Positions 12,422 to 18,225 of a stretch of DNA of 20,142 nucleotides are shown piece by piece. Location: the IMG/VR virus record IMGVR_UViG_3300044678_002635, positions 1 to 20,142 of that record; one strand, 5' to 3'. Origin of the DNA: a virus. The translations under genes were made by a program, and so were the position numbers. The stretch's first letter is position 1; the number at the start of each line of letters is the position of its first letter. Under the pieces are notes generated by a model. The model worked only from the letters and a program-made list of their open reading frames with translations, was not told the DNA's origin and ran no database searches.

Positions 12422-12497
12422 CTTCGCCCTCACCTTCCATACCTCGCCGAGGTGTGGCAGAGGTATGGAACCCCGGAAGCCTTGCCCTGTGGCCCTC

Positions 12498-12525
12498 TTC
12501 CATACCTTCCATACCTTCCATACCT
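12498..12525 (-). repeat. Left arm of central inverted repeat: three tandem iterons
   Basis: Three perfect head-to-tail TTCCATACC units plus one base form a 28-bp arm that is exactly complementary to 12608-12635. Confidence 0.95.
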
Positions 12526-12607
12526 AAAGTGAGTCAGGAGTGCGCGCGCGCGTGGGCGCACGGGCCTGTGCATACGCCTGCACGCGCCCACACGTACGTG
12601 AGAGAAA
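12526..12607. other. Central spacer with nested palindromes and alternating Pu/Py runs
   Basis: The 82-bp spacer between the 28-bp arms holds a 14-base alternating run (12541-12554, almost all GC steps). It also has GTGGGCGC (12552) paired with GCGCCCAC (12584), a GTGCA/TGCAC mini-stem between them, and the ten-base palindrome CACGTACGTG (12591-12600). Alternating GC/AC/GT steps favour Z-DNA, and the nested repeats favour cruciform extrusion. Confidence 0.7.
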
Positions 12608-12635
12608 AGGTATGGAAGGTATGGAAGGTATGGAA
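12608..12635 (+). repeat. Right arm of central inverted repeat: three tandem iterons
   Basis: Three perfect tandem GGTATGGAA units plus one leading base form the complement of 12498-12525. Together the arms could form a 28-pair stem. Confidence 0.95.
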
Positions 12636-12709
12636 CCCCCTTCTCTCCCAAGGCTTCGCGGGTTCCATACCTTGGCGTAAAGGTGTGGAAGGTATGGAAC
12701 ATCGCGGGG

Positions 12710-15571: not shown

Positions 15572-15583
15572 CGACTTCCAGCC

Positions 15584-15623
15584 AAAAAAATAAGCTGTCG
15601 GTGTGGATGTCACACCGACAGCT
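15584..15623 (-). terminator. Strong terminator between Cro-like operon and CII-like gene (tR1-like)
   Basis: AGCTGTCGGTGTG and CACACCGACAGCT form a perfect 13-pair stem with a five-base loop. On the minus strand TATTTTTTT follows, a strong U-tract. On the plus strand there is none, so it acts on leftward transcription. It lies where lambda has tR1, between cro and cII. The perfect dyad could also serve as a protein-binding site. Confidence 0.85.
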
Positions 15624-15725
15624 CGAAGCCCGGCCTTACACCGGGCGGAGGGAGACAAAAGAGAGGCCAGCCCATGACGGATAGAATCGCGGTACCACCC
15701 AACGACACCACCGAAAGGACTGGCC
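15624..15725. other. Leader region of the rightward DUF2513 gene
   Basis: A GCCCGG/CCGGGC stem (15628-15646) and a possible -10 box TAGAAT (15682-15687) are visible, but there is no convincing -35. AAAGGAC precedes the DUF2513 ATG. Nothing coding is seen on either strand. Confidence 0.35.
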
Positions 15726-16100
15726 ATGAAACGAGACATGGATATCATCCGGCGGATCATTCTCGAAACCGCCGAATTGCCATACGGGGAGACACTCGAA
15801 AGCCTAGAAGGCATCGCGGAGGAAGCATTCATCACGCATGTGATCTGGCTACGGGAAGCCGGGCTTATCGAGGCCGATGCGATGGCCGGCAGCGGATCAA
15901 TGGTGAAATACGCCATTGTCTCGAGGCTGACCTGGTCTGGCTGCGAATTCGCGGACGCCATCCAGGACGACACCCTATGGAACAAAGCGAAGGAAGTCGT
16001 GCTCAAGCCCGGCCTCTCATTCACCTTCGACACGCTCAAAGAGTGGCTGAAAGCCGAGATCAAGAATGGCCTGCCGTCCATCCGCAGCCTGTCCGACTAG
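15726..16100 (+). CDS. DUF2513-family protein, transcribed against the early operon
   Basis: The 124-residue product starts MKRDMDIIRRIILETAELPY and contains EAFITHVIWLREAGLIEADA, SRLTWSGCEFADAIQDDTLW and NKAKEVVLKPG. This is the DUF2513 pattern (PF10711): a winged-helix-like fold with a conserved MKRDMDLIR start, a HI.LL.EAGLI helix and an RLTW.GH.F.D.I...W motif. The family is common in prophages and has no established function to my knowledge. An AAAGGA site supports the start. It faces rightward between the CII-like gene and the Cro-like operon, which run leftward, so it may be an independently expressed cargo gene. Its 3' end overlaps the proposed minus-strand ORF at 16017-16256. Confidence 0.85.
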   Translation: MKRDMDIIRRIILETAELPYGETLESLEGIAEEAFITHVIWLREAGLIEADAMAGSGSMVKYAIVSRLTWSGCEFADAIQDDTLWNKAKEVVLKPGLSFTFDTLKEWLKAEIKNGLPSIRSLSD

Positions 16101-16256
16101 CCAATAGACCTCGACAACCGTCGCGAGCACGCCACGCGAAAAGTCTCCACTCTTGGCGTTCGACTCAATATTTATCGGGTGCAAGGTCTGACTGTGGGTC
16201 AGCGATGCGCCATGCCATAAGGCTATGGCCTGCAGATGCTCGAGTAGCTGGCGCAT
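16017..16256 (-). CDS. Uncertain small ORF downstream of the Cro-like gene
   Basis: This 79-residue frame begins MRQLLEHLQAIALWHGASLT and continues with GVLATVVEVYWLVGQAADGR. It is favoured only because its ATG shares a base with the Cro-like stop (TGATG) and it fills an otherwise empty 155-bp gap. Its last 28 codons are antisense to the DUF2513 gene, and no family is recognised. It could be a real coupled gene of the leftward early operon, or chance. Confidence 0.4.
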   Translation of the reverse strand: MRQLLEHLQAIALWHGASLTHSQTLHPINIESNAKSGDFSRGVLATVVEVYWLVGQAADGRQAILDLGFQPLFERVEGE

Positions 16257-16495
16257 CACACCGCCTCCTGATGGGGTTCGGGCGCCGCGTCGGCAGCAAC
16301 CTCTGCCGAGCCACGGACCAATTCGTCACGCAATTGGACCAAGGCAATGAATAGGGAGGCCGAACAATCCTTGCTGATGCCAGTTCGCACCCGCCAAATA
16401 GTCGGCTGCGTGCTTTTGACACGTTCGGCAATGTCCTGGTCGGACAGATTGAACCTGGCCGCCAGTTCGGCGGCGACTTCCTGTGGCGTATTCAT
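16256..16495 (-). CDS. Cro-like helix-turn-helix regulator
   Basis: The 79-residue protein (MNTPQEVAAELAARFNLSDQ) has a clear helix-turn-helix at residues 17-40, LSDQDIAERVKSTQPTIWRV, in which QDIAERV is the positioning helix and TQPTIWRV the recognition helix. Small size, divergent orientation to the CI-like gene and a promoter carrying two operator copies all fit a lytic Cro-type repressor. The only good start is the ATG at 16495, and predicted transcription begins about three bases before it, so its mRNA would be nearly leaderless. Loss of the CI-like protein would switch this gene and the leftward early operon on. Confidence 0.8.
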   Translation of the reverse strand: MNTPQEVAAELAARFNLSDQDIAERVKSTQPTIWRVRTGISKDCSASLFIALVQLRDELVRGSAEVAADAAPEPHQEAV

Positions 16496-16504
16496 AAACC
16501 GCAG

Positions 16505-16532
16505 GATATACGCAAACGAATATCTGTGTCAA
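16505..16532 (-). promoter_or_regulatory. Leftward early promoter (pR-like)
   Basis: TTGACA (16532 down to 16527) and TATATC (16510 down to 16505) are separated by 16 bases on the minus strand. The -10 box overlaps one operator and the -35 box touches another. Predicted start is near 16498, three bases before the Cro-like ATG. Confidence 0.8.
16508..16521 (-). promoter_or_regulatory. Operator copy at the pR-like -10 box
   Basis: ATTCGTTTGCGTAT read on the minus strand is one of five copies of the imperfectly palindromic site ATTC(A/G)TTNNCG(T/C)AT. It lies 24 bases centre to centre from the next copy. Confidence 0.75.
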
Positions 16533-16545
16533 TACGGGAATGAAT
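16532..16545 (-). promoter_or_regulatory. Operator copy upstream of the pR-like -35 box
   Basis: ATTCATTCCCGTAT on the minus strand is identical to the copy at 18185-18198. Confidence 0.8.
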
Positions 16546-16551
16546 GTCGCC

Positions 16552-16580
16552 TTGCCCGCGCCAATTCATTCACGCATAGT
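16552..16580 (+). promoter_or_regulatory. Putative promoter of the CI-like gene (PRM-like), leaderless
   Basis: TTGCCC (16552-16557), 17 bases, then CATAGT (16575-16580) gives a moderate sigma-70 promoter. Counting from the -10 box puts +1 at about 16587, which is the A of the CI-like start codon. An operator copy lies between and over the boxes. No Shine-Dalgarno sequence precedes the ATG, consistent with a leaderless message. Confidence 0.55.
16564..16577 (+). promoter_or_regulatory. Operator copy within the CI-like promoter
   Basis: ATTCATTCACGCAT is a diverged member of the operator set, on the plus strand, lying over the PRM-like spacer and -10 box. It would allow autoregulation of the repressor. 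Confidence 0.6.
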
Positions 16581-16586
16581 TAAACC

Positions 16587-16985
16587 ATGACCATCGCCGA
16601 CGAACTCGACAAAGCCATGCGCGACTTCAGGCCGGGAGGCATTACCCAGCCCGAACTCGCCGAACTTTCTGGGGTGCCGCAGCCCACGATCAGTCGCACC
16701 CTGAAAGGGAAATCGACCCCCGAAACCAAGACGCTCATCAAGCTGGCCAAAACGCTCAAATGCACGCTGGGCGGTTACACCGGGACCGCGGCGGCACACA
16801 AGGCCTATGCCACTACCAACGTCCGGGATCTGAAGACCAAAGAACCTGACGCGCTGCCACCGCAAGTCGCTGAAATTCTCAAGCTGGCAAAAGCAATGAG
16901 CCCAGCGGGTCAATATGTGCTTCTGGGCAACGCTCAGCAAATCGTCAAGGCCTATCCGAAGGCCAAAGCAAACCATTCCAGCTGA
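16587..16985 (+). CDS. CI-like phage repressor (short HTH type)
   Basis: The 132-residue protein has a helix-turn-helix in ITQPELAELSGVPQPTISRT (19-38), followed by a positively charged LKGKSTPETKTLIKLAKTLK. This is an HTH_3/XRE-like domain of the kind found in phage repressors. The C-terminal part (PPQVAEILKLAKAMSPAGQY, then VLLGNAQQIV, 91-120) is helical and may dimerise. There is no S24/LexA-like self-cleavage domain, so RecA-stimulated autocleavage is not expected. It is divergent from the Cro-like gene with three operators between them. The rightward membrane-protein operon begins 79 bases downstream with no clear promoter, so it may be part of the same lysogenic transcript. Confidence 0.82.
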   Translation: MTIADELDKAMRDFRPGGITQPELAELSGVPQPTISRTLKGKSTPETKTLIKLAKTLKCTLGGYTGTAAAHKAYATTNVRDLKTKEPDALPPQVAEILKLAKAMSPAGQYVLLGNAQQIVKAYPKAKANHSS

Positions 16986-17064: not shown

Positions 17065-17256
17065 ATGAGCGCCACCCCGATCAAACACCTGCTCGCGGCA
17101 TCGATTGTCATTGGGCTGATCGGCACGACAACGCCGACCGAGGCCACACCGGGCCGAACCAACGCCAAAGGGTGCCACAACAGCAAGAAGGCCGGCTATC
17201 ATTGCCACGGCACCCCGAAGCCGACCCCGAAAAAAGCCAAGAGCAAGAAAAAATGA
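17065..17256 (+). CDS. Small secreted Cys/His-motif protein in the repressor-linked operon
   Basis: A 63-residue protein. Residues 1-27 (MSATPIKHLLAASIVIGLIG then TTTPTEA) form a likely Sec signal peptide cleaved near TEA|TPG. The mature part carries GRTNAKGCHNSKKAGYHCHG, a compact CH...YHCH motif also seen, as I recall, in small secreted proteins and at the end of some secreted nucleases. It may bind a metal. A Lys/Pro-rich basic tail (PKPTPKKAKSKKK) follows. AAAGG lies about ten bases before the ATG. Its stop overlaps the next start as ATGA. Function unknown. Confidence 0.72.
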   Translation: MSATPIKHLLAASIVIGLIGTTTPTEATPGRTNAKGCHNSKKAGYHCHGTPKPTPKKAKSKKK

Positions 17257-17939
17257 GATTCCAGAAGCGCATCAAGCTACTGCCGGGTATCAGTATCAAC
17301 CTCTCGAAATCCGGCATCAGCACATCGATTGGTCCCCGTGGCGCCAAGGTCACGGTTGGCAACGGAAAACGGCGCGCCACCGTAGGGATACCCGGCACCG
17401 GACTGAGCCACAGCGTCGTTGAATCCACCAGCACCCACGCCTTCAATCACTCAATCGTCGCCACGCTCATCATCGGCGCCCTCCTCGTTCTCGCAACCTT
17501 ACTTTTGGCAGGCTGCGCCACGAGTGTGCAGCGGGCTACACCATCAGAATTAATTGCCGATCCTGGTGCGCGCGAAGAATTCACCACCAAGCTAGACTAT
17601 GACGCGGCTTACCGTACAACGCAGGAGCAGATGAAGTCGTGCTACGAGCGCAAACTGGGACTCTTCGGCACGGCGCAATTAACCGTGATCGCCGACAAGG
17701 GTGTCAAAGATGCCAGAGTCTCGCTGTCAATGAGTTCGATGCTCAACGTTCGCGCACTTTGGAGCATCATGCTGACCCCAACCTCGACAGGAACCAACAT
17801 CACGATCTACGGTGCCAGCGCGCCAGCGACCGCTCAAATGAAAACCAACCTGCAGGGGTGGTTGAACGAAGGCGAGACACGGTGCCCAGGAACTACAACC
17901 CCTGCCGATGCCGATGAAAAGAAGACGAGGCCGTTATGA
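17253..17939 (+). CDS. DUF4236 protein fused to a lipobox/membrane segment and C-terminal domain
   Basis: The 228-residue product starts with a DUF4236 domain (PF14020): MRFQKRIKLLPGISINLSKS, then GISTSIGPRGAKVTVGNGKR and ATVGIPGTGLSHS, to about residue 54. A hydrophobic helix (67-86, SIVATLIIGALLVLATLLLA) ends in LLAGC, a textbook lipobox with Cys88. The remaining 140 residues (ADPGAREEFTTKLDYDAAYR, QEQMKSCYERKLGLFGTAQL) look like a small periplasmic lipoprotein domain. There is no internal start codon before the hydrophobic helix, so the fusion is genuine in this sequence. The ATG at 17253 overlaps the previous stop, and its stop overlaps the next start. I infer a membrane-anchored protein with a cytoplasmic DUF4236 part. 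Confidence 0.8.
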   Translation: MRFQKRIKLLPGISINLSKSGISTSIGPRGAKVTVGNGKRRATVGIPGTGLSHSVVESTSTHAFNHSIVATLIIGALLVLATLLLAGCATSVQRATPSELIADPGAREEFTTKLDYDAAYRTTQEQMKSCYERKLGLFGTAQLTVIADKGVKDARVSLSMSSMLNVRALWSIMLTPTSTGTNITIYGASAPATAQMKTNLQGWLNEGETRCPGTTTPADADEKKTRPL

Positions 17940-18124
17940 TCCCAGCGATCGGACTGATGATTGCCGCATACACCTTCACCCGCATGATCGAGCTGCTCAT
18001 GCGTCCCGATCGCGGGATCATCGTTAAGATTTTCGCCGTCCTGACCCTAATCACGATCGCGCTGGCATCATTCGCCCTGATGGCGAGCTCGATATCCGGT
18101 AGCAGCGGACTCGGAATTAGATAG
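17936..18124 (+). CDS. Small two-helix membrane protein closing the repressor-linked operon
   Basis: A 62-residue protein with two hydrophobic helices: MIPAIGLMIAAYTFTRMIEL (1-20) and IVKIFAVLTLITIALASFAL (29-48). A short basic MRPDRG turn separates them, and a Ser/Gly tail follows. It starts within the stop of the DUF4236 gene (ATGA) and is followed 23 bases later by a strong terminator. Its place and topology recall small exclusion proteins such as RexB in lambda, though there is no visible homology. Confidence 0.7.
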   Translation: MIPAIGLMIAAYTFTRMIELLMRPDRGIIVKIFAVLTLITIALASFALMASSISGSSGLGIR

Positions 18125-18147
18125 CCTCTACCTCTCACCCACGAACC

Positions 18148-18171
18148 AACCCACCCGCGCGGTGGGTTTTT
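18148..18171 (+). terminator. Terminator ending the repressor-linked operon
   Basis: AACCCACC and GGTGGGTT form an eight-pair stem with a five-base loop, followed by TTTTTC on the plus strand. It insulates the lysogenic operon from the OL-like promoter just downstream. Confidence 0.88.
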
Positions 18172-18184
18172 CTTGTGAAAATAT

Positions 18185-18198
18185 ATTCATTCCCGTAT
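18185..18198 (+). promoter_or_regulatory. Operator copy upstream of the pL-like -35 box
   Basis: ATTCATTCCCGTAT, identical to the minus-strand copy at 16532-16545, ends on the first base of the -35 box. Confidence 0.8.
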
Positions 18199-18225
18199 TG
18201 ACACGGATATTCGTTCCCGTATAGA
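18198..18225 (+). promoter_or_regulatory. Rightward early promoter (pL-like)
   Basis: TTGACA (18198-18203), 16 bases, then TATAGA (18220-18225). The whole promoter-operator block is nearly identical to the leftward one at 16505-16545, including the 16-base spacing and 24-base operator distance. Predicted start is near 18232. Confidence 0.82.
18209..18222 (+). promoter_or_regulatory. Operator copy at the pL-like -10 box
   Basis: ATTCGTTCCCGTAT shows the dyad best: half-sites ATTCG and CGTAT flank four bases. It covers the first bases of the -10 box. Confidence 0.8.

Follow-up and report, generated by a model that had tools for sequence, protein, structure and literature searches.

The question raised by this locus is what three overlapping genes are doing between the repressor gene and the OL-type operators of a temperate phage. 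The window, by which we mean the whole 20,142-base stretch analysed, is a complete virus record. Head, terminase, HNH and VapE-type primase genes occupy the minus strand of its left part, and its right end is a mirror-image lambda-like immunity region, which leads through a terminator to a rightward early promoter and early genes. The regulatory features of this region are:

16256-16495, minus strand: Cro-like regulator gene (79 aa), divergent from the repressor gene; PHROG transcription-regulator match, 6.5e-7
16508-16577, no strand assigned: OR-type operator region, three copies of the 14-bp operator ATTCRTTCCCGTAT
16552-16580, plus strand: candidate repressor promoter (pRM-like), TTGCCC-17-CATAGT, read from the sequence, 8/12 consensus matches
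16587-16985, plus strand: repressor gene, encoding an HTH_3 protein of 132 aa that lacks a peptidase domain; Pfam HTH_3, 1.7e-11
18148-18168, plus strand: intrinsic terminator at the end of the operon, an 8-bp stem with a T run behind it, 24 nt past the last stop codon
18185-18227, plus strand: OL-type region, two perfect operators (18185-18198 and 18209-18222)

The earlier note on this DNA had called the repressor gene CI-like. Its identity as a repressor stands, but a LexA-type peptidase domain is absent from the product, an HTH-only protein that weakly resembles RstR and DicA in Pfam and NCBIfam scans. We propose that it is the first gene of the lysogenic operon. Two further observations concern the DNA upstream. 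A DUF2513 gene (15726-16100, plus strand), with a GC content below that of its neighbours, lies between the replication and Cro genes. Just 3′ of the VapE primase gene, the stretch 12430-12700 contains imperfect direct and inverted GGTATGGAAGGTATGG-like copies and matches itself in inverted orientation; it is perhaps a replication origin.

Searching the window with the 14-bp operator pattern gave six matches where 1.2 were expected, five of them in the immunity region. The three OR copies lie at 16508-16521 (-), 16532-16545 (-) and 16564-16577 (+), and the two at OL overlap a rightward early promoter, TTGACA-18-TAGAGT, which is the pL equivalent. The OL/OR assignment is thus stronger than first claimed. 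Furthermore, the OR and OL regions share a 39-bp inverted duplication. Because a common operator set flanks the repressor and the cargo on both sides, the arrangement is that of lambda rexAB; the rexAB position assigned earlier is also borne out by the terminator, the gene order and the strand, which is that of the repressor gene.

The operon itself consists of three genes 3′ of the repressor gene, all of them chosen independently by a codon-model gene caller whose training set was restricted to long genes of this phage:

17065-17256, plus strand: P0001, 63-aa secreted YHYH-type peptide (NCBIfam NF033223, YHYH_alt) with a hydrophobic N-terminus
17253-17939, plus strand: P0002, 228-aa fusion of DUF4236 (PF14020), a transmembrane (TM) segment, a lipobox and a C-terminal lipoprotein domain
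17936-18124, plus strand: P0003, 62-aa membrane protein with two hydrophobic segments; homologues in loci L244, L245 and L250

Both joints are ATGA overlaps (AAATGAG at ~17253 and TTATGATC at ~17936), as expected of the tight operon described before. No promoter match of at least 9/12 was found between the repressor gene and the operon by our promoter scan, in agreement with the claim that the operon has no clear promoter of its own. The pRM-like promoter upstream of the repressor gene is only inferred, because its 8/12 matches fall under the scan threshold; it would start the mRNA at ~16587, directly at the repressor ATG, and hence give a leaderless transcript. In lambda, the pRM mRNA also begins at the repressor ATG and is leaderless. 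Terminator-like matches in the region are no more frequent than in shuffled sequence (6 versus 6.3 expected), so the closing terminator convinces by its position and its shape, a stem-loop with a U-run, rather than by count. The GC content of the module is 0.56-0.60, compared with 0.64 for the phage.

We then asked what the three products are. P0001 has a signal-peptide-like N-terminus and a CH/YHCH motif, and belongs to YHYH_alt by the curated cut-off (37 bits, cut-off 30), which confirms its description as a secreted CH/YHCH peptide. Secreted YHYH peptides are also found outside phages. P0003 is the predicted two-helix membrane protein. P0001, P0003 and P0004 gave no match among annotated phages; the small size of P0001 and P0003 limits the depth of such searches, as homology signals of short proteins are weak.

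P0002 is the DUF4236-lipobox fusion that the earlier note had recognized. Residues 1-52 match DUF4236 well above the Pfam gathering score (75.2 bits, cut-off 27), and a TM segment at ~66-87 is followed by the lipobox LAGC with Cys88. Since 65 residues including DUF4236 stand N-terminal to the TM segment, the lipobox is internal and may not be processed as in the topology proposed below. The DUF4236 and C-terminal domains were modelled separately:

17253-17408, plus strand: DUF4236 domain, predicted six-strand beta meander (AlphaFold2 mean pLDDT 78, pTM 0.38)
17508-17936, plus strand: C-terminal lipoprotein-like domain, helix-grip (model pLDDT 79.5, pTM 0.73)

The DUF4236 domain is expected to face the cytoplasm, and its meander, predicted with moderate confidence, runs into the TM helix; its model had no significant match in the PDB, and we therefore claim no fold relation. 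For the C-terminal domain model, the nearest solved structures include two envelope lipoproteins, Flpp3 (Z 9.7) and BamC (N-domain, Z 8.8), with unrelated helix-grip folds scoring nearly as high. Cys130 and Cys211 of this domain are invariant in an alignment of ten homologues, and invariant cysteines are shared with the BPTD_2524 lipoproteins (NF046053), to which the domain is related without being an equivalog (31.1 bits, cut-off 50). We considered BPTD_2524 as a phage-specific family and rejected this, as its members are mostly chromosomal. Across phages, plasmids, 299 genomes from the family that includes Dechloromonas sp. CZR5 and 399 from the order, the full-length fusion was never found beyond the sister contig L002; the searches returned matches to either the DUF4236 domain or the lipoprotein domain separately. 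Over 8.1 kb, L002 differs from the window by two SNPs, both synonymous and both in the DUF4236 gene.

Does the same slot hold other genes in related phages? Our comparison covered VapE-related phages and prophages of betaproteobacteria. Sister contig L020 matches the window at 97.5% up to 15154, at 96% over 15581-16297 and at 100% from 18563. Between these flanks it carries a different Cro, a different repressor and different cargo, a BRCT-domain protein with a small ORF, so that the whole immunity module has been replaced. The L018 slot holds a zinc-ribbon membrane protein and a secreted HNH, that of L017 a BRCT pair, and further relatives hold other pairs. The slot is a cargo site whose position and modularity are established: its content differs between close relatives, and its parts recur behind the repressors of unrelated phages. 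Indeed, P0003 has one homologue each in L244 (49%), L245 (44%) and L250 (45%), all three in the slot 3′ of a repressor gene and each behind a different repressor. In L250, the start of the homologue overlaps the repressor stop codon by ATGA, and an integrase gene follows. P0003 homologues occur without P0001 or P0002, and two of the three operons also encode a zinc-ribbon TM protein (CxxC-TM-CxxC). In lambdoid phages, the cI-N interval is a hotspot of mosaic diversity, with rexAB and bstA located there, downstream of cI (PMC8585504).

Some side observations belong to this comparison. The DUF2513 gene stays in place when the immunity module is exchanged. By eye, the BRCT-domain cargo protein has a TerB-like N-terminal part (L020:4218-5095, L017:4279-5156, L040 and L203:179-799), and a small ORF comes next in L020 and L017. 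Pairs of a zinc-ribbon protein (CxxC-TM-CxxC) and a small secreted HNH are linked to repressors in different phages (L253:3096-4340, L018:4371-4975), and we know of no description of such a pair.

A survey of DUF4236 gene neighbours, suggested by the earlier note, pointed to repressors as well. In 8 of 34 independent phage loci, an HMM-detected HTH gene lies immediately 5′ of DUF4236 on the same strand, versus 15 of 334 other genes of the same loci (4.5%; Fisher p=4e-4), a p-value that is indicative rather than exact because the HTH profile was partly seeded from repressors of these loci and because a single sequence pattern was used to retrieve all 34 clusters. L119, L133 and L011 are further cases of this linkage, recognized by eye or separated by one intervening gene. 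Several loci carry DUF4236 between repressor and integrase, and other DUF4236 genes adjoin tape-measure genes. A TM segment is predicted after the domain in 34 of 42 clusters.

The partners of DUF4236 also recur. In L128, repressor and DUF4236-TM genes are followed, by ATGA overlap, by a gene for a 54-aa exported YHYH-like peptide with CCHKQKSTGKIHCH. The order in L119 is repressor, DUF4236-TM, zinc-ribbon TM and secreted HNH, and L253, on the L245 backbone, has a secreted HNH directly after the zinc-ribbon TM protein. In about 45 Acinetobacter phage loci, an exported peptide of 58-62 aa (CSGKKGGISHC) is encoded a few bases 5′ of DUF4236-TM, and in the loci examined a gene for a lipoprotein or another exported protein is often next. 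This peptide belongs to the uncharacterised PRK10040 family and not to YHYH_alt; the likeness of P0001 to the Acinetobacter and L128 peptides is therefore at motif level, since these fall into a different or no curated family. As DUF4236-TM and the lipoprotein encoded after it are separate in the Acinetobacter phages, P0002 looks as if the two had been fused. Matches of a His/Cys motif scan in L006 and L132 (near) and in three far cases were chance-like ORFs and were left out of these pairs.

Outside phages, a true YHYH_alt gene in a bacterial genome (L203) adjoins a long DUF4236 gene and a gene similar to the BRCT-type cargo. On the Acinetobacter johnsonii plasmid NZ_CP068188.1 (L226:1783-3824) and in L005, a divergent DUF4236-TM gene lies beside a BREX WYL regulator and brxA/B/C; in 175 Acinetobacter plasmid records the brxA-WYL-DUF4236 stretch has a match, which covers at least 80% of its length in 144. 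DUF4236 proteins of ~400 aa are found in the ter (tellurite) cluster of enterobacterial plasmids (L223, L224 and L229), between HpcH/HpaI-StiP biosynthetic genes and terW.

The slot, the repressor linkage, the membrane or periplasmic targeting of the products and the permutation of parts together make it very likely that the operon is a lysogen-expressed envelope cassette. Superinfection exclusion would be its likeliest function by position and topology, and exclusion at entry the best single candidate, because characterised genes of such slot and topology do this or something related. We therefore read the locus as an envelope cargo operon that a betaproteobacterial temperate phage carries in its cI-OL interval, one permutation of a modular set found behind the repressors of temperate phages, and as a means of excluding other phages at genome entry, the latter with a probability of about 0.5. 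In the lysogen, the repressor promoter would read into the three genes, which would thus be co-transcribed with it, while the early promoters are shut. The TM helix of P0002 would span the inner membrane, leaving DUF4236 in the cytoplasm and exposing the lipoprotein-like domain to the periplasm; export would place the YHYH peptide beside P0002, and P0003 would provide a second membrane component. Together, perhaps as a complex, the products would most likely act at the inner membrane or in the periplasm on the entering genomes of superinfecting phages; they might, for example, obstruct the tail/tape-measure channel, and versions with a secreted HNH nuclease as partner might cut the DNA there. 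A jumbo-phage survey predicts YHYH domains to be metal-dependent hydrolases with a metal site (PMC7824862), and on this basis exported YHYH peptides and exported HNH proteins might, speculatively, be comparable effectors. More tentatively, the recurring parts may belong to a shared combinatorial exclusion system behind repressors, undescribed as such, that attacks genomes or the injection machinery in the periplasm on entry: a membrane-anchored DUF4236 or zinc-ribbon protein with an exported YHYH or HNH effector, and lipoprotein and two-TM parts as options.

The main rival is lysogenic conversion for host fitness, in which the operon would change the envelope or metal and stress tolerance and have nothing to do with other phages. 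It draws on the lipoprotein-domain relatives, which are ordinary chromosomal lipoproteins in Burkholderiales, on the long DUF4236 proteins in plasmid tellurite-resistance clusters and on the predicted metal site of YHYH (PMC7824862); since neither secreted YHYH peptides nor BPTD_2524 lipoproteins are restricted to phages, these parts could serve functions in the host envelope. However, exclusion genes are the best-known content of the cI slot, and a passage in PMC8193136 citing Whelan 1995 names ter clusters for phage inhibition and colicin resistance as well, so we regard this rival as rather unlikely.

Abortive infection of the RexAB kind, with one product sensing infection and the small membrane protein depolarising the cell, shares the slot and a small membrane protein as last gene, and RexAB-type pairs of dissimilar sequence exist (PMC12894663). 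Yet no match to RexA or RexB was found in Pfam, NCBIfam and PADLOC scans, and we rejected that identity; P0003 homologues occur without P0001 or P0002, and for two of the three products the predicted location lies outside the cytosol, by export or by display, which is a poor fit to a cytosolic DNA sensor. We consider this explanation improbable. Still less probable is that the three are passenger genes riding with the immunity module, tuning the lysis-lysogeny decision or having no measurable effect: since the module is swapped in one piece, linkage by itself might suffice to keep them, but the same parts recur behind unrelated repressors, and both SNPs in the DUF4236 gene are synonymous, although at two sites only. 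Lysis or lysis-control genes (a holin-like two-TM protein and a spanin-like lipoprotein) are the least probable content of this region, for although P0003 has two TM segments and P0002 a lipobox, the search for the lysis or structural homology named earlier as counter-evidence gave only a sub-threshold Rz-type spanin match (phrog_456, E=0.0056) over the TM/lipobox stretch of P0002 (residues 72-133), which we rejected as an identity given its lack of lysis-cassette context, and the operon lies inside the repressor-controlled region on the strand opposite the structural genes, with no endolysin found nearby and with P0003 and DUF4236 homologues that follow repressors, several directly 5′ of integrase.

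Returning to exclusion at genome entry, none of the three products matched known defence, exclusion or lysis families above cut-off in Pfam, NCBIfam and PADLOC, where the PADLOC scan was empty. This fits the claim that no described system has this composition, as does the near absence of DUF4236 from the literature searched: the kind of cargo is known, and its present composition appears to be undescribed. DUF4236 is widespread on phages and in more than 2,600 plasmid records, with almost no literature and no function assigned, and its association with repressors, and with His/Cys peptides or nucleases that are exported, provides a concrete, testable role, for which nature supplies the permutations. 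If this is right, the small group of prophage systems known to work at the point of genome entry would gain a modular periplasmic exclusion strategy.

Among known systems, plasmid ter clusters also encode 400-aa proteins with an N-terminal DUF4236, whereas their C-terminal part and partners (TerW, StiP) differ. SNIPE, a membrane nuclease, works at the inner membrane, where it cleaves incoming DNA and makes contact with the tape measure protein (PMC13190303); the permutations of DUF4236, zinc-ribbon and secreted HNH suggest a similar logic of membrane anchor and nuclease, but SNIPE is a single GIY-YIG protein and the operon in the window has no nuclease domain. HK97 gp15 and P22 SieA both keep out superinfecting phages, and SieA does so at the inner membrane (PMC10883804, PMC11436027, where Cumby 2012 is cited for gp15). 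They share with our reading that exclusion is prophage-encoded, and other DUF4236 genes adjoin tape-measure genes, but they have no sequence match to the operon products and a different gene position. BstA, a lysogen-expressed prophage defence acting at sites of phage DNA replication (PMC8585504), is also encoded 3′ of the repressor, with no sequence relation found to the operon products. Ltp, the superinfection-exclusion lipoprotein of the Streptococcus thermophilus phage TP-J34, is encoded in the lysogeny module and blocks DNA injection (PMC3952083); lipoproteins of its type are displayed at the outer face of the cytoplasmic membrane. DUF4236 genes of Roseburia, Ruminococcus and Faecalibacterium phages occupy the same repressor-to-integrase interval as ltp; the lipoprotein domain is a different one, and here it stands behind DUF4236 and a TM helix and has two partner genes. 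Finally, a RexAB-type pair of P. putida sits in the repressor operon, and RexAB defends (PMC12894663). Lambda rexAB itself, part of the repressor transcription unit, occupies the same slot, between cI and OL and 3′ of the repressor gene, and also has a membrane protein among its products, whereas the operon described here comprises three genes, for products whose predicted fate is export or display at the membrane.
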